Shown: positions 3,239 to 13,661 of the stretch, one piece after another
How the letters are laid out: each line of letters begins with the position of its first letter
How positions within the stretch are numbered: the first letter of the stretch is position 1
Origin: an uncultured Pelagibacteraceae bacterium
GTDB taxonomy: Bacteria > Pseudomonadota > Alphaproteobacteria > Pelagibacterales > Pelagibacteraceae
DNA length: 48,091 nt
Assembly: GCA_902572345.1 (NCBI GenBank)
Contig: CACGEW010000009.1
Span: 1 to 48,091 of the forward strand
Direction of reading: 5' to 3'
Position numbers and translations under genes: made by a program
Notes under the pieces: model-generated
What the model saw: only the letters and a program-made list of their open reading frames with translations
Databases searched by the model: none
What the model was told of the DNA's origin: nothing

Positions 3239-3985
3239 ATGAAATTAAAAGCAAAATTAAGGTACTTAATATTTAAATATTTTCCTAAAAAATACATAAA
3301 AAAATTTAATTTATCATTTGAACATAAACTTAACTACAACCTATTAGACTTGTTAAAAAAAGGACTTAAAATAGATGTTATTTTTGATATTGGTGCATAT
3401 CGGGGTGAATGGAGTGAATCATTAAGTATAACTTCACTGAAAAAAAGAAAGTTTTTCTTATTTGAGGCAAATGAAGAAAATCGAAGCTTCCTAGAGAAAC
3501 TTAACTTTAAATTTTTTTTTCATATTCTATCTGACCAGACCAAAGATGTTAATTTTTACTCTAATGTTTCAACTGGAGACTCATATTTAAAGGAACAAAC
3601 GTCTTTTTATACCGAAAATTCTAATGTGGTTTTGAGAAAATCAACAACATTGGATAGTATTGTTAAAAAAGAAAACTTGCCTTTACCAGATTTTTTGAAA
3701 ATTGATACACAAGGAAGTGAGCTCGATATTCTCAGGGGCTCAAAAAAATCTATTTCTAAATGTTCTTTGATATATTTAGAATGTCCAATTATTGAGTATA
3801 ATTTAAAAGCTCCTAAATTAAATGAATATATAGATTATTTAAATTTAATCGATTTTGTGCCATATGATGTTTGTGAAATTCATAAAATTGATAATGTTTT
3901 AATACAAATTGATATACTTTTTATCAAAAAAAATATTCTAAATAAAATTTACCCAAATAAAAAAATTCTTAATATTTTAAATTAA
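3239..3985 (+). CDS. FkbM-family methyltransferase
   Basis: A 248-residue SAM-dependent methyltransferase of the FkbM type, a family that usually O-methylates sugars or glycan and lipid precursors. The SAM-binding motif I is VIFDIGAYRGEW near residue 50, followed by FLFEANEENRSFLEKL near 77. The family core TTLDSIVKK...PDFLKIDTQGSELDIL lies near 140-170. It stands alone on the plus strand between the groESL terminator and the convergent hisG, whose 3' end it overlaps by 17 bases. No SD is evident before the ATG at 3239. Such genes are often accessory (surface glycan variation). The substrate cannot be read from the sequence. Confidence 0.85.
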   Translation: MKLKAKLRYLIFKYFPKKYIKKFNLSFEHKLNYNLLDLLKKGLKIDVIFDIGAYRGEWSESLSITSLKKRKFFLFEANEENRSFLEKLNFKFFFHILSDQTKDVNFYSNVSTGDSYLKEQTSFYTENSNVVLRKSTTLDSIVKKENLPLPDFLKIDTQGSELDILRGSKKSISKCSLIYLECPIIEYNLKAPKLNEYIDYLNLIDFVPYDVCEIHKIDNVLIQIDILFIKKNILNKIYPNKKILNILN

Positions 3986-4649
3986 GCAAAAAAGGCTCTA
4001 AATTTTTTTTATATTTTTTTGTAATTAATAAACAAGCAGTTGAATTAAGTATCAATCCATCTTTAAGAACTCTTAAATTATTATCAGATAAAGTTTTGCC
4101 TGTAGAAGTGATATCTGTAATAATTTCTGAAGATCCAATAAATGGATAGGTTTCAGTGGCGCCAAGACTAGGAATCAATTTATATTGAGTAACTCCTTTA
4201 GAAATCAGAAAATCATTGGTTAAATTTGGATATTTGGTCGCCACTCTCAATCTAGAATTTCTTTTAGATCTAATATCAAACGATACCTCTTCAAGATCAG
4301 CGATGGTCTGTACGTCTATCCAATCGTCGGGTACCGCGATTACTAAGCTGGCATTACCAAAATTAAGTTTTTTTTGAATATTTATTTTACCTTGTAAATT
4401 TTTATGAGACTCTTTTAAAAGATCTAATCCAGATACACCTATGTCTAGAGTGCCATCTCCTAATCTTTGAATAATTTCTTTGGCATGAAGAAATATAATT
4501 TTGATTTTTGGATTTTTTTCAATAGTGCCAAAATAATTTCTTTCTTTTTCATTATGTAAAATCTTAAATCCACTATCATTAAAAAATGATATTGCTTTAT
4601 CTTTTAAACGTCCTTTACTTGGCAGACCTATAGTAATTAAATCTTTCAT
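3969..4649 (-). CDS. hisG: ATP phosphoribosyltransferase catalytic subunit, short form
   Basis: HisG condenses ATP and PRPP in the first step of histidine synthesis. The 226-residue length marks the short form, which lacks the C-terminal regulatory domain and needs HisZ. Visible features are GLPSKGRLKDKAISFF at the N-terminus, DIGVSGLDLLKE near 82 and the PRPP-binding-type segment EIITDITSTGKTLSDNNL near 178. Its ATG overlaps the hisZ stop by four bases (ATGA). The 3' end runs 17 bases into the convergent FkbM gene. The upstream partner HisZ is present, so the pair should be functional and allosterically regulated by histidine. Confidence 0.95.
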   Translation of the reverse strand: MKDLITIGLPSKGRLKDKAISFFNDSGFKILHNEKERNYFGTIEKNPKIKIIFLHAKEIIQRLGDGTLDIGVSGLDLLKESHKNLQGKINIQKKLNFGNASLVIAVPDDWIDVQTIADLEEVSFDIRSKRNSRLRVATKYPNLTNDFLISKGVTQYKLIPSLGATETYPFIGSSEIITDITSTGKTLSDNNLRVLKDGLILNSTACLLITKKYKKNLEPFLLNLKY

Positions 4650-5683
4650 ATATTTTTTAAGTTAATTGCCGCTCCAACAGCAGGAATATTATTTTTAGCT
4701 CCTAAACTTTTAAGTAAATCATCATATCGGCCGCCCCTAGCGATTTCTTTATTCCCCGAAAATACTTCAAATACAATTCCAGAATAGTATTCAACATCTC
4801 TCCCAAAATTAGCGATAAAATTTATATTTTGATTAAGTTTTTTTAGATTAAGAAGGGATTTAATATTTTTAAATATATTTTTTTTTAAATTATTTTTTTT
4901 AGTAAATTCTAATAATTCTTCATCAAGTTCTGAGAGTTTACAATTAATTTTTAAAAAAGATTTAATAATTTTTACAATTTCTTTTCCATTAGTAAAAGAT
5001 CTTGGATCTTGTATCTTTTTATCAAATCTTTTTAGAATTTCTGATACTGATCGTCCAGCAATCATTCTATCTTGAGCTAATTTTTTCATTTCATAAAATC
5101 TTTTCTTATCTGAGTCAAAAGTAACCGCATCAATATCTGTATTTTTTTCTAATCTTTTTAAAAGCTCTTTGAAATATTCTGGTCTCCAAAAGTGTCTAAT
5201 CAATCTTAACTTCCATCTCTCAGGCATAACTAAAGCATTAATCAAACTTTTATACAATCCAATATCACCAACTTTGATTTGAATTTTTTTCTTTTTAATT
5301 TTTTTTACAGAACTTAAAATTGTGCTCATAACTTTCAAATCATCTTGAATTTGATTTTTTGAACCTAAAATTTCAATACCGAGTTGATCATTAATAAAAT
5401 CAGAACCTTTTTTGTTAAATCTTTTATAAGCTTGACCCGAGTAATAAATTTTAGAGGAAGATTTTTTTTGCAGAAAACTAATACATGATGCAACTGTTAA
5501 ATCTGGCCTTAAGCACATCGTTTTTCCATCTTCTCTATCAAAAGTAAGCATTGAACTTCTAAATTTTTCACCAGACCTTTCAATTATAAAATCTGAGTCC
5601 AATAGAACATCAGGTTCTAACAAAACAAAACCATTACTCCTAAAAGTTTTAATGATAGATTCAGATAATTTTTTTGATTTCAT
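4646..5683 (-). CDS. hisZ: ATP phosphoribosyltransferase regulatory subunit HisZ
   Basis: HisZ is a HisRS paralogue without synthetase activity that activates short-form HisG and carries the histidine-sensing function. The 345-residue product has class II synthetase-like features: MCLRPDLTVASC near residue 56 (counterpart of motif 2 entry), YYSGQAYKRF near 79 and GGRYDDLLKSLGA near 317. The middle region is very lysine-rich and diverges from HisRS. Its start overlaps the hisS 3' end by 23 bases and its stop overlaps hisG by four, so hisS-hisZ-hisG form one coupled operon. Confidence 0.92.
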   Translation of the reverse strand: MKSKKLSESIIKTFRSNGFVLLEPDVLLDSDFIIERSGEKFRSSMLTFDREDGKTMCLRPDLTVASCISFLQKKSSSKIYYSGQAYKRFNKKGSDFINDQLGIEILGSKNQIQDDLKVMSTILSSVKKIKKKKIQIKVGDIGLYKSLINALVMPERWKLRLIRHFWRPEYFKELLKRLEKNTDIDAVTFDSDKKRFYEMKKLAQDRMIAGRSVSEILKRFDKKIQDPRSFTNGKEIVKIIKSFLKINCKLSELDEELLEFTKKNNLKKNIFKNIKSLLNLKKLNQNINFIANFGRDVEYYSGIVFEVFSGNKEIARGGRYDDLLKSLGAKNNIPAVGAAINLKNI

Positions 5684-6995
5684 TTACTAATTCTTTAATT
5701 TCAATTGATTGCTCTTTGCCGGATCTTAAATTTCTTAAAGTTGGTTTACTAGATTTTATCTCGTTCTCACCATATAAAATTACAGCAGGCGAATTAATCT
5801 TATTTGCATACTCCATTTGTTTTTTTAATTTGCTTTCACTAGGATAAATTTCTACACTTATGCCAGCTTTTCTTATAATCGTTTGTATAGCTATGTAATC
5901 TTTCATTGAATTTTTATCAAAAACACAAATCACGATAGGTTTAGATTGTTTAATTTTAAATTCTGTTTTCTGCATCAAGGCATATACCAATCTATCTAAT
6001 CCGATTGATATTCCTGTGGCAGGAGCATCATAATTACCAAAATTGTTAACTAAGTTATCATATCTTCCTCCGCCTCCTATCGAGCCAAATTGAATTACCT
6101 GTCCTTTATCATTGGTTACATCAAATTTTAAATTCACCTCAAAAATCGCACCAGTATAATATTCCAGCCCTCTTATAATTGATGGATCAAATTCAAAATT
6201 ATTAAAATTGTAATCTTTAAATATTTTTAATATCTCTAATAAATCTTCGGTTTCCGGTGACTTTTTTTTTAGCGCTTCTTCTATTGTTTCAATATCTTTG
6301 GGTTTCAAATTAGCGCCTTTTGTGAAATCTCCTGATTTGTCTTTTCTACCAGAGCCCAACAATTCTTTTACTCCATTCCAACCAAGTCTATCAATTTTAT
6401 CTAGAGCTCTTAAGGCGGTAAGTTTTTGCTGACTATCGTTAATATTTATTTTTTTAAATAATTCTTCAGTTATTTTTCTTGATGATATCTTTACTATATA
6501 TTCTGATTTAGTTAGACCGCACTTTTCAAGAATTTCTGATATCATTACACATAACTCAGCATCAGCTTGTAAACTTTTAGTGCCTACATAGTCTGCGTCG
6601 AATTGTAAAAATTCTCTAAATCTTCCTGGTCCAGGTTTCTCATTTCTCCAAACAGTTCCTAATTGATATCTTTTAAATGGTTTGGGAATTTCTAAAAAAT
6701 TTTTTGCAACATATCGTGCGAGTGGTGCTGTAAGATCATATCTCAAAGACAGCCATTTATTATCATCTCTAAATGAAAAGACACCCTCATCTGGTCTATC
6801 TTTATCTGGTAAAAATTTTCCAATACTATCTGAATACTCAAAACTTGGTGTTTCAAGATATTGAAAACCATACTTGATCATAACTTCTTTAATGTTAGAA
6901 ATTATAAAATCACGTACGAGTAATTCTTTTTCTTGTCTATCTACAAACCCTAATGGAAGTTCTTTAGAAGGGTTGATCTTTTTTTCTTTTTTCAT
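5661..6995 (-). CDS. hisS: Histidyl-tRNA synthetase
   Basis: HisRS charges tRNA-His. With the ATG at 6995-6993 the protein has 444 residues. The reading frame is open further upstream, but that part is the tRNA-His gene, so the longer start is rejected. Motifs: SLRYDLTAPLARY (near 85), motif 2 region RYQLGTVWRNE...GRFREFLQFDAD (near 108-135), histidine A-type RGLEYYTGAIFEV (near 273) and GGGGRYDNLV (near 306). The FREFLQFDAD version is that of the alphaproteobacterial HisRS group. No SD precedes the start, which lies four bases past the tRNA CCA end. It overlaps hisZ by 23 bases. Confidence 0.96.
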   Translation of the reverse strand: MKKEKKINPSKELPLGFVDRQEKELLVRDFIISNIKEVMIKYGFQYLETPSFEYSDSIGKFLPDKDRPDEGVFSFRDDNKWLSLRYDLTAPLARYVAKNFLEIPKPFKRYQLGTVWRNEKPGPGRFREFLQFDADYVGTKSLQADAELCVMISEILEKCGLTKSEYIVKISSRKITEELFKKININDSQQKLTALRALDKIDRLGWNGVKELLGSGRKDKSGDFTKGANLKPKDIETIEEALKKKSPETEDLLEILKIFKDYNFNNFEFDPSIIRGLEYYTGAIFEVNLKFDVTNDKGQVIQFGSIGGGGRYDNLVNNFGNYDAPATGISIGLDRLVYALMQKTEFKIKQSKPIVICVFDKNSMKDYIAIQTIIRKAGISVEIYPSESKLKKQMEYANKINSPAVILYGENEIKSSKPTLRNLRSGKEQSIEIKELVNEIKKII

Positions 6996-6999
6996 TTTT

Positions 7000-7076
7000 T
7001 GGTACAGCAGGGTGGATTCGAACCACCGACCCCTAGTTCCACAAACTAGTGCTCTAACCAACTGAGCTACTGCTGC
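7000..7076 (-). tRNA. tRNA-His (GTG anticodon)
   Basis: The reverse complement folds as a full cloverleaf of 77 bases: acceptor GCAGCAG pairs with CTGCTGT (first pair G-U), D arm GCTC...GAGC, anticodon stem CTAGT/ACTAG with loop TTGTGGA (anticodon GTG, plus-strand 7040-7042), and T arm GGTGG TTCGAAT CCACC. CCA is genome-encoded. The base before position 1 is T, not the usual extra G, and the discriminator is A73. This matches the known alphaproteobacterial group that lacks G-1. The 3' end is four bases from the hisS start. Confidence 0.97.
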
Positions 7077-7244
7077 ATCCTAGTTATATTTATCTTAATT
7101 TTTATTAAATTTATATATATTTGATTATAAGCTAAGCAATAGCTTAGCGTGCATTCTGTGAGAATGTGATCTTAAAGTTGATAATTTGTTTTTTATAATC
7201 ATACTAATTATTTAAAAAACAATTGTGTCATTTTCAAGAATAAA
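7077..7244. other. Noncoding region upstream of tRNA-His with two small inverted repeats
   Basis: No open frame of note. GCTAAGC (7131-7137) and GCTTAGC (7142-7148) form a perfect 7-base inverted repeat with an AATA spacer. CATTCT/AGAATG (7152-7157, 7161-7166) form a second one. Read on the minus strand, the first repeat lies directly before TATAAT (7129-7124), a likely -10 for the tRNA-His-hisS unit. No good -35 could be placed. The repeats may be operator-like or part of an untranslated RNA; neither is shown. Confidence 0.4.
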
Positions 7245-7290
7245 TTAGCGGGACAATAAAAAAGCTAGGCTTGTCTTAATGTCCCGTTAA
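7245..7290 (-). terminator. Nested inverted repeat downstream of the cold-shock gene, possible terminator
   Basis: TTAGCGGGACA (7245-7255) pairs with TGTCCCGTTAA (7280-7290) with one G-T pair. Inside the 24-base loop, AAGC/GCTT (7262-7265, 7269-7272) forms a small hairpin. On the minus strand the small hairpin is followed directly by a run of T residues, which resembles a weak terminator enclosed in a longer stem. It begins about 23 bases after the cold-shock gene stop, so ending that transcript is the simplest role. Confidence 0.5.
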
Positions 7291-7313
7291 CCAGTGATTT
7301 TTGGAAATTTAGA

Positions 7314-7526
7314 TTAAGATGTTTTCTGCAGTTTTACTGCTGAAGGACCTTTTTCCGTGCTCTCCACTTCAAACGTTAACTCATCACCTTCGTTTAAATA
7401 TTTTAAACCTGCTTCTCTTACAGCTGAAGAATGAACGAACACGTCTTTTTCTTTGTCTTCTCTTTCAATGAAACCATATCCTTTAGTACCATTGAACCAC
7501 TTTACTTTACCTTTTAGTGTACTCAT
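7314..7526 (-). CDS. Cold-shock domain protein (CspA family)
   Basis: A 70-residue single cold-shock-domain protein that binds single-stranded RNA or DNA and acts as an RNA chaperone. RNP1 is KGYGFIE (residues 15-21) and RNP2 is VFVHSS (residues 29-34); both have the family aromatic residues. The length is typical. The ATG follows AAGGA by about 13 bases. The leader upstream contains a 7-base inverted repeat (7559-7577). It is monocistronic between accA and the tRNA-His leader. The exact csp paralogue cannot be assigned. Confidence 0.96.
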
Positions 7527-7558
7527 ATTGTTTGTTTTTCCTTATTATTATTAACTTT

Positions 7559-7577
7559 AACTAATTAAAAATTAGTT
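7559..7577 (-). repeat. Small hairpin in the cold-shock gene leader
   Basis: AACTAAT (7559-7565) and ATTAGTT (7571-7577) are perfect inverted repeats, about 33 bases before the start codon. Leaders of cold-shock mRNAs often fold in a temperature-dependent way; here the stem is AT-rich and weak, so such a role is only a possibility. Confidence 0.3.
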
Positions 7578-7637
7578 GAGTGAACCTTAAATAGCCTAGA
7601 ACAATAAAAGTCAATAGGAGAAAATAATATTTAATAA

Positions 7638-7658
7638 AATTGTTTTTTTGCAACAATT
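7638..7658 (-). terminator. Weak intrinsic terminator after accA
   Basis: AATTGTT (7638-7644) and AACAATT (7652-7658) form a 7-base stem. On the minus strand the stem begins two bases after the accA stop codon and continues into TTTTATT. It is AT-rich, so confidence is limited. Confidence 0.4.
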
Positions 7659-7659
7659 G

Positions 7660-8766
7660 TTAAAATATAAGGGCAATTAAGCTTGTTAGGGCCAATAGGC
7701 CTATACCTGTATAAATTATTTTATTTTTAGCAATGTGGGATACTAATTTTTGTATATTTGCCTCTTTATAACTTAATCCTCTTCCATCAAGATTAGCAGA
7801 TTTATTAAAGCCTTGACCTCTACCAATTTGAAGAAACTTTGCTTTTCTATGGTCGTAAATTTCTTCTTTACTAAAGTTTTCAAAACTTTTTAAGTTTTTC
7901 ATTATTGAGTGTTTAATATCTGCGGCAATACTTTCGGGGTCTCTGTGAGCTCCGCCTAATGGTTCTGAAATTATCTCATCAATGACACCAAGTTTTAATA
8001 AATCTTTTGCGGTTAATTTCATTGCTTCTGCTGCTTGCAATGATTTACTAGGGTCTCTCCAAAGAATTGATGCACATCCTTCTGGAGAAATTACGGAATA
8101 AATAGAATTTTCCAACATGATAACTTTATTTGATGAAGCTAAGGCTATTGCTCCACCAGATCCACCTTCTCCAATAATAATTGAGATGTTTGGAACAGTT
8201 AATGACATGCAGCACTCTATTGAATTAGCGATAGCTGAAGCTTGTCCTCTTTGTTCAGCTCCAAGTCCTGGATATGCTCCAGGTGTATCAATAAAACTTA
8301 CCACGGGTATTTTAAAACGGTCAGCTAACTTCATTAGCCTAATACATTTTCTATATCCCTCTGGTCTCATCATTCCAAAATTTCTTTCAATTCTACTATT
8401 TAAATCTTCACCTTTTTCTTGACCGATAACTAGAACAGATTTGTTATCAATTAATCCAAATCCAGCGATGACAGATTTATCGTCACCAAAATATCGATCA
8501 CCTGATAATAAAGTAAATTGAGAAAATATTTTTTTAATATAAAAATTTGCTTTAGGTCTATCTTCATGTCTAGCAACTTGAGTTTTTTGCCAGCTATTAA
8601 GATTTGCATAAGTCTCTTTGAGTTTTTCATTTATTTCGTTTTGAGTATTTTTAATCTTTTGAGTATCGACTTCTGAAATACCTTCTGAACCAAAGGGGCT
8701 TTTTAAACTATCAACTTCCTGCTCAAGTGCTTTAATTTCTTTTTCAAATTCTAAATAGTTTTTCAT
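7660..8766 (-). CDS. accA: Acetyl-CoA carboxylase carboxyltransferase subunit alpha, with C-terminal membrane tail
   Basis: AccA with AccD transfers the carboxyl group from biotin to acetyl-CoA, the first committed step of fatty acid synthesis. Core features: YLEFEKEIKALEQEV at the start, HEDRPKANFYI near 68, then the crotonase-like core with IDTPGAYPG near 161 and EGGSGGAIAL near 200. The family core ends near residue 315, close to the usual full length of about 320. Here a further 53 residues follow, ending in a hydrophobic stretch (residues about 350-368, IIYTGIGLLALTSLIALIF) that looks like a single transmembrane anchor. The partner accD is at 43902. Its start is divergent from glcB, 56 bases apart. 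Confidence 0.95.
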   Translation of the reverse strand: MKNYLEFEKEIKALEQEVDSLKSPFGSEGISEVDTQKIKNTQNEINEKLKETYANLNSWQKTQVARHEDRPKANFYIKKIFSQFTLLSGDRYFGDDKSVIAGFGLIDNKSVLVIGQEKGEDLNSRIERNFGMMRPEGYRKCIRLMKLADRFKIPVVSFIDTPGAYPGLGAEQRGQASAIANSIECCMSLTVPNISIIIGEGGSGGAIALASSNKVIMLENSIYSVISPEGCASILWRDPSKSLQAAEAMKLTAKDLLKLGVIDEIISEPLGGAHRDPESIAADIKHSIMKNLKSFENFSKEEIYDHRKAKFLQIGRGQGFNKSANLDGRGLSYKEANIQKLVSHIAKNKIIYTGIGLLALTSLIALIF

Positions 8767-13559: not shown

Positions 13560-13565
13560 TTTAAA

Positions 13566-13655
13566 GAGGCAGGCAACAACCTGAAAAATTTTCACTACGG
13601 CTGCTTCTTTTCAGACCTGACCGGGTTTATGAAACATCCACCTGATGCCAACCTC
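13566..13655 (-). ncRNA. ffs: 4.5S RNA of the signal recognition particle (small type)
   Basis: The reverse complement carries the SRP core: GGTCAGGTCT, GAAA loop, AGAAGCAGCC, compared with the usual GGTCAGGTCC GGAA GGAAGCAGCC. The ends pair (GAGG at 13655-13652 with CCTC at 13569-13566, then GGCA with TGCC), giving an RNA of about 90 bases. A promoter is correctly placed for a start at 13655. The position just upstream of dnaX is the conserved alphaproteobacterial location. It binds Ffh for co-translational membrane targeting. Exact ends may differ by a few bases. Confidence 0.93.
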
Positions 13656-13661
13656 AATATG

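Follow-up and report, generated by a model that had tools for sequence, protein, structure and literature searches.

A Histidine-Rich Leader ORF as a Probable Histidine-tRNA Sensor of the tRNA-His–hisS–hisZ–hisG Operon in SAR11-Type Bacteria

Introduction

The leader of the enterobacterial his operon is a leader-peptide attenuator with clustered His codons. In mitochondria, tRNA genes punctuate the transcripts, and excision of the tRNAs leaves nearly leaderless mRNAs. Bacteria of the SAR11 group, which rank among the most abundant marine cells, possess few transcription factors. In Bacillus, His leader peptides are found before a hisS paralogue (hisS*) and before hisZ, and T-boxes before the other hisS genes, according to the part of PMC2965389 that deals with these loci. 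The cysS leader of Rhodobacterales, uORFC-8-2, is an ORF with cognate codons in front of an aminoacyl-tRNA synthetase gene, as outlined in the relevant part of PMC8632094. In Sinorhizobium meliloti, the 5′ end of the attenuator RNA rnTrpL begins with the ATG of trpL (PMC7298713, in its account of this RNA). Binding by the synthetase itself is described for ThrRS of Escherichia coli on thrS and for yeast HisRS on its own mRNA, where the bound part mimics the tRNA anticodon (PMC6542539, in the portion on these cases).

Here, we analyze a locus of an uncultured Pelagibacteraceae bacterium in a window (the whole stretch of DNA under study, 48,091 nucleotides of contig CACGEW010000009.1, assembly GCA_902572345.1) and compare it with its counterparts in related genomes. 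The locus resembles the his leader attenuators in having a short ORF with clustered His codons upstream of histidine genes (for Bacillus, the same part of PMC2965389), but it differs from them in that a tRNA gene stands between leader and hisS, the hairpin lies inside the end of the ORF, no intrinsic terminator is seen, and the ORF is predicted to be leaderless. Control of hisS by the charging of tRNA-His would be a trait shared with the hisS T-boxes of Firmicutes (PMC2965389, same part); however, no T-box model matched the window at its gathering score, which was reached by tRNA and SRP RNA only, and the Rfam his leader family gave no match at that score either. The cysS leader uORFC-8-2 is concerned with Cys and has an intrinsic terminator, and the pertinent part of PMC8632094 mentions no tRNA gene in the unit. 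Like rnTrpL, the SAR11 leader would be an alphaproteobacterial attenuator RNA that starts at the leader ATG, but rnTrpL belongs to Trp biosynthesis, is a studied attenuator RNA, and has no tRNA gene mentioned in the corresponding part of PMC7298713. Compared with thrS and the yeast HisRS mRNA, the putatively bound part in SAR11 is a real tRNA-His gene, the sole one found both in the genome of the window and in a second genome, G062. Compared with mitochondrial punctuation, the genome is bacterial, only part of its tRNAs are involved, and the arrangement is predicted from sequence.

None of the matches listed from the open literature describes a His leader in front of tRNA-His or hisS of SAR11, or a tRNA gene behind an amino-acid leader peptide. 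The terms hisS, histid-, and leader peptide are absent from the main text of a SAR11 RNA survey (PMC2704228).

Organization of the Operon

On the minus strand, the window carries csp (7526-7314), a gap, tRNA-His (7076-7000), hisS (6995-5661), hisZ (5683-4646), and hisG (4649-3969), in this order. The genes and the spacer that follow the gap are:

7000..7076, minus strand: tRNA-His (GTG) with G1-U72, A73, and encoded CCA, without G-1 (ARAGORN, Rfam)
6996..6999, minus strand: AAAA spacer from CCA to the hisS ATG (sequence)
5661..6995, minus strand: hisS, histidyl-tRNA synthetase, 444 aa (TIGR00442 above cut-off, E 8.1e-111)
4646..5683, minus strand: hisZ-like ATP-phosphoribosyltransferase regulatory subunit (HisZ models best, all below curated cut-offs)
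3969..4649, minus strand: hisG, ATP phosphoribosyltransferase (TIGR00070 above cut-off)

The overlap is 23 nt between hisZ and hisS and 4 nt between hisG and hisZ. A relative of hisZ lies directly 3′ of hisS in 80 of the 80 named loci, and hisG lies directly 3′ of hisZ in 75 of these 80 in the stretches as fetched. The operon consequently unites tRNA-His with the synthetase that charges it and with the enzyme that opens histidine synthesis, the set that is expected under a sensor of His-tRNA. The genome of the window is of the SAR11 type, comprises 990,790 bases, is 92% complete, and has 28 tRNA genes found. According to both ARAGORN and Rfam, tRNA-His is the sole tRNA in the window; the Rfam span (7076..7003) is without the CCA, and that of ARAGORN is 7076..7000. 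The gene for the bacterial small SRP RNA lies at 13562-13656 on the minus strand (Rfam RF00169).

The family to which the window belongs (f1) was represented by 126 hisS loci, one per genome, from six genera. Genomes without a hisS match (7 of 37 g1 genomes) or with weak matches only (e.g., G080, G114, and G161) were left out.

The tRNA-His–hisS Junction

A sequence-only reading of the window had singled out positions 6993-7076, the span from the hisS start codon through the 5′ end of the tRNA. It stated that hisS starts four nucleotides after the CCA of tRNA-His without a Shine–Dalgarno (SD) sequence, which is borne out by the sequence, ARAGORN, Rfam, and TIGR00442. On the minus strand, the junction reads CTGCTGTA-CCA, AAAA, ATGAAAAAAG; the hisS ATG is at 6995, and just CCA and AAAA, with no SD, stand between it and the acceptor stem with its discriminator. 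Conservation of the spacing, which had been proposed as a check, is found in the relatives: the gap from CCA to ATG is 3-6 nt in 121 of 126 f1 loci and 23-60 nt in the other five, all of them g6. Of the spacers called by ARAGORN, 102 are shorter than 8 nt, and 68 of these read AAAA. A tRNA-His is present within 60 nt of hisS in every one of the 126 loci and in all six genera, one of these tRNAs being seen in part. ARAGORN left the tRNA-His uncalled in 21 of the 126 loci, and an Rfam tRNA match was found at the hisS-side position in 20 of 20 tested; in the twenty-first (L111), a contig end truncates the locus and leaves the 3′ part of the tRNA only. An SD-like 4-mer at -18..-4 of hisS is absent in 108 of 126 loci, and the 18 loci that have one are all g6. 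In four g6 loci with gaps of 23-29 nt (L120, L122, L132, and L262), a short hairpin-like insert is seen by eye between CCA and the hisS ATG.

The short spacer and the absent SD are ordinary for the genome of the window, because 10 of its 28 tRNAs, tRNA-His included, are followed by an ORF of at least 80 aa that starts 2-8 nt after the CCA (L031-L058), and because only 7 of the 43 ORFs of the window that reach 150 aa have an SD-like 4-mer before their first ATG. Such an ORF follows 5 of the 30 other tRNAs of G062 (L145-L174). The proposal that the 4-nt junction without SD provides a histidine-specific feedback is left without support, since nine other tRNAs of the genome have a like junction and starts without SD are the rule in the window. 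The earlier interpretation is supported in part: with the transcript cut or uncut, tRNA maturation and HisRS translation have this junction in common, as had been said, and it is the reading as feedback specific to histidine that finds no support.

The counts of close ORFs (10 of 28 tRNAs) and SD-like motifs (7 of 43 ORFs), together with the lack of the junction in a second family of hisS loci (f2, described below), fit an explanation by streamlining only, in which short spacers are common, tRNA-His stands beside hisS by chance, and the junction has no regulatory meaning. Streamlining accounts for the 4-nt spacing, but not for the His-rich leader, the codon selection, and the fixed promoter presented in the following sections, nor does it say why tRNA-His has been kept at 60 nt or less in 126 of 126 f1 loci despite strong divergence of the tRNA. 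We consider it unlikely to be the whole explanation.

Two states of the transcript may be distinguished. With the tRNA excised, AAAA-AUG would be the start of the mRNA, which is rich in A and unstructured there (fold -0.7 kcal/mol); with the transcript uncut, 8 nt would separate the folded acceptor stem from the hisS AUG. A hisS mRNA made near-leaderless by processing is plausible, as is putative binding of HisRS to the tRNA part of the transcript. For tRNAs of Propionibacterium acnes that have an encoded CCA, cleavage is reported a few nucleotides downstream, presumably followed by trimming (PMC3848588, in the part on these tRNAs); by analogy, a cut of this type would land here in the spacer or in hisS itself.

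Identity and Divergence of tRNA-His

The anticodon is GTG in 125 of 125 parsed f1 loci, U72 with A73 is found in 124 of 125, and base -1 is U in the window sequence. The derived alphaproteobacterial tRNA-His/HisRS pair is defined by A73 and by the lack of an encoded G-1 (PMC3937112, in the part that defines it); both traits are found here, the state of -1 in the window and A73 in 124 of 125 f1 loci. The persistence of these letters while the rest of the tRNA diverges, the folded acceptor stem so close to the AUG, and the precedent of yeast HisRS (PMC6542539, same portion) would suit an autogenous feedback, in which free HisRS, bound to the tRNA portion of a transcript not yet cut, would prevent either 3′ processing or the entry of ribosomes at the AUG 4 nt away, in the manner of ThrRS on thrS. 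However, the function of the tRNA itself requires the same letters, so the conserved GTG, U72, and A73 prove nothing about binding to the mRNA. The junction is moreover common to other tRNA-ORF pairs, and the gap widens to 23-60 nt in the five g6 loci. Autogenous feedback of this kind is, in our estimate, distinctly improbable.

In 24 of 125 parsed f1 loci (L112, positions 1266-1336, and 23 more), the hisS-linked tRNA-His is without the canonical TTCRA T-loop; the loop is AGCGTAA in 17 g6 loci and has other forms in 5, and it is TGCAACT in 2 g5 loci. The tRNA-His of L112 also lacks the GG of the D-loop by eye, with GTG and U72 retained. A mitochondrion-like tRNA may serve all His codons of G062. 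The idea that the hisS-linked gene is a tRNA mimic accompanied by a second, true tRNA-His was checked in two genomes, that of the window and G062, and is unsupported. One tRNA-His was found among the 28 tRNAs of the former (92% complete), and no second one among the 33 tRNA matches of the latter, which is a single contig. These 33 comprise 30 that were typed, none of them His, as well as the hisS-linked one, one tRNA-Leu, and one partial match of 33 bits that ARAGORN does not call and that has the anticodon CAT by eye.

The Leader ORF and Its His Codons

In the alignment of the g1 loci, an unexpectedly conserved stretch upstream of the tRNA is a small ORF. It sits between csp and tRNA-His, ends 48 nt upstream of the tRNA, and has three His codons and a hairpin at its end. 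Its parts are:

7125..7202, minus strand: leader ORF, 25 codons, MIIKNKLSTLRSHSHRMHAKLLLSL and stop (codon-level conservation, His clustering)
7164..7166, minus strand: His codon 1 (CAT), His in 66 of 68 unique cores
7158..7160, minus strand: His codon 2 (CAC), His in 63 of 68 unique cores
7149..7151, minus strand: His codon 3 (CAC), directly 5′ of hairpin P3, His in 67 of 68 unique cores
7152..7166, minus strand: hairpin P2, CATTCT-CAC-AGAATG, which holds His codons 1 and 2 (pair counts, 64 sequences)
7131..7148, minus strand: hairpin P3, GCTAAGC-TATT-GCTTAGC, 7 bp, which starts at the next base after His codon 3 (pair counts, window fold)

The leader DNA is matched once in the genome of the window. 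With the contig-end locus L111 set aside, leader counts cover 125 f1 loci. An ATG-initiated ORF with at least three His within 8 aa is present in 100 of these against 17 of 2500 shuffled sequences, with 19 of 19 loci and 0 of 380 shuffles as the figures for f2; the shuffles were made from the same stretches with dinucleotides kept. The other 25 f1 loci have fewer than three His in any 8-aa window, two of them with one His. A leader ORF with at least two His is found in 123 of 125 f1 loci and in all 19 f2 loci.

Codons were tabulated in 68 unique 48-nt cores of the g1 type, drawn from 116 of 117 loci (L225 was left out). The third His codon, which lies outside both hairpins, is CAC in 54 cores, CAT in 13, and CAA in 1. 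A Ser codon of the leader encodes Ser in 67 of 68 cores by way of three synonymous codons, though the changes break the inner pair of P2. Over the six codons that run from His 1 through His 3, minority letters number 42 at third positions against 11 at first and second positions combined. The aligned cores indicate that this stretch is under selection at the codon level, because of the excess of third-position changes (42 against 11) and the synonymous changes in the His and Ser codons. The six codons of P3 give 11 and 24 for the same positions, and here it seems to be pairing, not coding, that rules.

The histidine-rich leader ORF presents itself as the means by which the cell probably senses a shortage of histidine-tRNA, and the histidine-specific regulator of the locus is most likely this ORF and not the junction. 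Comparison of the loci lends strong support to the predicted His-tRNA sensor. In g1, conservation extends beyond His to Ser, Arg, Ala, and Leu, as could be expected if the peptide of the small ORF acted in trans instead of in cis, for which peTrpL of S. meliloti offers a precedent (PMC7298713, in the part on this peptide). Outside g1 and g9, however, the peptides share little except His, and the position before hisS is constant. We regard an action in trans as highly improbable and retain the reading in which the ORF acts in cis.

Hairpins of the Leader

Pairs were counted in 64 unique 42-nt cores. In P2, two of the six pairs are changed on both sides (in 4 and 1 of the 64 sequences), the inner, loop-closing pair is broken in 19, and two outer pairs are broken in 1 each. 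The apparent covariation of P2 is modest, and P2 is the weaker of the two hairpins. All seven pairs of P3 are unbroken in the 64 unique g1-type sequences, with changes on one side only, a count that has to be read with the caveat that the pattern used to locate the cores, matched by all 116 loci, itself required most of P3.

In f1 as a whole, the last His codon is followed by a stem that begins at a distance of 0-6 nt in 93 of 123 loci; shuffled sequences that preserve base counts only show this in 5 of 2460 cases. Two f1 loci without a leader of at least two His were left out of the stem and promoter counts, so that 123 of 125 were used. A stem this close to the last His codon (6 nt or less) was found in none of the 4 g7 and g8 loci and in none of the 19 f2 loci; in g7 and g8, a further His codon lies inside the hairpin, by eye.

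Two other pairings were considered and rejected. An anti-tRNA switch, in which the 3′ arm of the leader pairs with the 5′ half of the tRNA (seen by eye in g1), is lost by eye where the acceptor stem changes (L027, g7, and g8). A closing stem between the start and stop regions of the leader appears in the window fold and is missing from the g1 consensus fold.

The Leader Promoter

The candidate promoter of the operon consists of two elements:

7232..7237, minus strand: -35 element TTGAAA (conserved position)
7209..7214, minus strand: -10-like element TAAATA, 17 nt after the -35 element and 6 nt before the leader ATG (sequence; T/A-rich f1 columns)

A candidate leader ATG has the motif TTG[ACT] at a distance of 34-36 nt upstream in 116 of 123 f1 loci and in all 19 f2 loci; among other ATGs of the same stretches, this holds for 113 of 2530 in f1 and 12 of 337 in f2. 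More than one candidate leader ATG is present in 17 of the 123 f1 loci, and TTG is missing at the expected place in 7. A strict scan for the sigma-70 consensus gave 3 promoter-like sites, with 3.5 expected, and the leader promoter is not among them; the case for this predicted promoter rests on conservation. In the window, the leader ATG lies 35 nt after the start of the -35 box. The leader ORF is predicted to be leaderless because the box stands at -35 from the A of the ATG, and the transcript probably starts at or very near this ATG.

That tRNA-His and the hisS mRNA are joined, as the sequence-only reading held, is strongly suggested by the conserved 4-nt spacing together with a conserved promoter upstream of both. 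An arrangement in which the leader is on a separate short transcript or acts in part, with tRNA-His transcribed constitutively from a promoter of its own, would draw on an A/T-rich, TATAAA-like motif about 8-16 nt before the tRNA that recurs in the f1 alignments by eye. However, the 60 nt that precede the tRNA reach a -35/-10 score of 8 of 12 at best, inside the span of 7-10 among the 28 scored tRNAs; the scan calls no site there, and no partner -35 element is seen. A separate tRNA promoter seems to us rather unlikely, and joint transcription from the leader promoter is preferred.

An inverted repeat, GGGACA...TGTCCC (7250-7285), lies downstream of the stop codon of csp and upstream of the leader promoter, with partial conservation by eye among the g1 loci listed. 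It is perhaps the end of the csp transcript.

A Second Family and Other Orders

The second family, f2, is represented by 19 loci, and in them ARAGORN calls no tRNA on the strand of hisS over the 700 nt that precede the gene; an SD-like motif stands before hisS in 13 of 19 loci. Relatives with hisS far from the tRNA and with an SD, which the sequence-only reading had named as evidence against its feedback, are thus at hand. The leaders of f2 have the same promoter spacing as those of f1, and their peptides are mostly of 11 aa and of the HHHxH type, examples being MFKFKHHHYHI, MIVFTHHHIHI, and MLIIKHHHSHI, each followed by a stop. In f1, leader and hisS are separated by the tRNA. The leader tracks hisS, because it precedes hisS in both families whether a tRNA is adjacent or not. 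The two families differ in the peptide as well as in the hairpin, and a common descent of their leaders is suggested by position, promoter, and His codons only. A tRNA-His on the same strand was found near the upstream end in 6 of the 15 f2 regions first fetched, and tRNA-His and hisS were for this reason probably near neighbors before they were joined.

In the f2 leaders (L060-L074 and L141-L144), the stop codon is immediately followed by a covarying hairpin of 9 bp, in which several pairs occur in alternative forms. Behind the hairpin come a conserved ACCCC motif and a T-rich stretch, and the T-run does not come directly after the stem.

The comparison with other orders of the class used 50 hisS loci of 49 genomes, obtained from the 113 other-order genomes in a 115-genome search. 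ARAGORN found a tRNA in none of the 50 fetched stretches, and a leader with at least three His in 8 aa was found in none of the 47 loci with a placed hisS start.

Proposed Mechanism and Output

We propose that tRNA-His, hisS, hisZ, and hisG form one unit under a sensor in which the ribosome reads the supply of His-tRNA, and we hold this to be probable on balance. The transcript would start at the leader AUG or 1-2 bases from it, and a ribosome would load at the 5′ end and read the three His codons just before P3. When charged tRNA-His is short, the ribosome would stall at the His codons; stalled on the last of them, it should cover the 5′ arm of P3, and a ribosome that has passed them would end at the stop codon a few nucleotides after P3. 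Stalling would change the folding of P3 and of the RNA behind it. The fold of P3 is expected to depend on the ribosome because of the anatomy of the leader, and this folding would set the output of the operon, that is, of the tRNA, the synthetase, and the first enzyme of histidine synthesis. By analogy, a shortage of histidine would result in more of the operon, with the signal presumably passed on to the polymerase or to the RNA. The tRNA would form the 5′ end of the hisS transcript, and its excision would leave an AAAA-AUG mRNA, as behind other tRNAs of the genome.

As in known attenuators, an ORF with a cluster of cognate codons lies upstream of the genes for its own amino acid, and a promoter, recognized by its conservation, lies directly upstream of that ORF; an intrinsic terminator with a competing antiterminator was not found between leader and genes. 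No terminator-like site occurs in 6900-7700, and no intrinsic terminator is visible in genus g1. The 10 nt after the stem contain 4-5 T in 35 unique g1 loci and 3-7 T in 69 unique g6 loci; in f2, a stem was found in 11 of the 14 unique loci, and these 11 have 0-2 T. The counts leave out g5. The locus is not filed as a classical attenuator of the terminator type because of the few T after the stem and the lack of a terminator-like site. Genes for both Rho and RNase E/G are present, and the output might be mediated by either. As in tRNA-punctuated mRNAs, the start codon stands a few nucleotides from the 3′ end of the tRNA.

A combined scheme would have stalling on the leaderless His-codon ORF control the tRNA, the synthetase, and the first enzyme and, in addition, have each transcript choose between maturation of the tRNA and translation of HisRS across the 4 nt from CCA to AUG, the two outcomes competing or being gated by the binding of HisRS. 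We look on this fuller scheme as doubtful, and the leader-based sensor of a single unit is the reading that we carry forward.

Conclusions

If the proposed mechanism is true, a leader that responds to the charging of His-tRNA would control tRNA, synthetase, and biosynthesis in one unit, which would be a very compact regulator. With its frequent tRNA-AUG junctions, the SAR11 group would also offer a testable bacterial parallel to mitochondrial tRNA punctuation.
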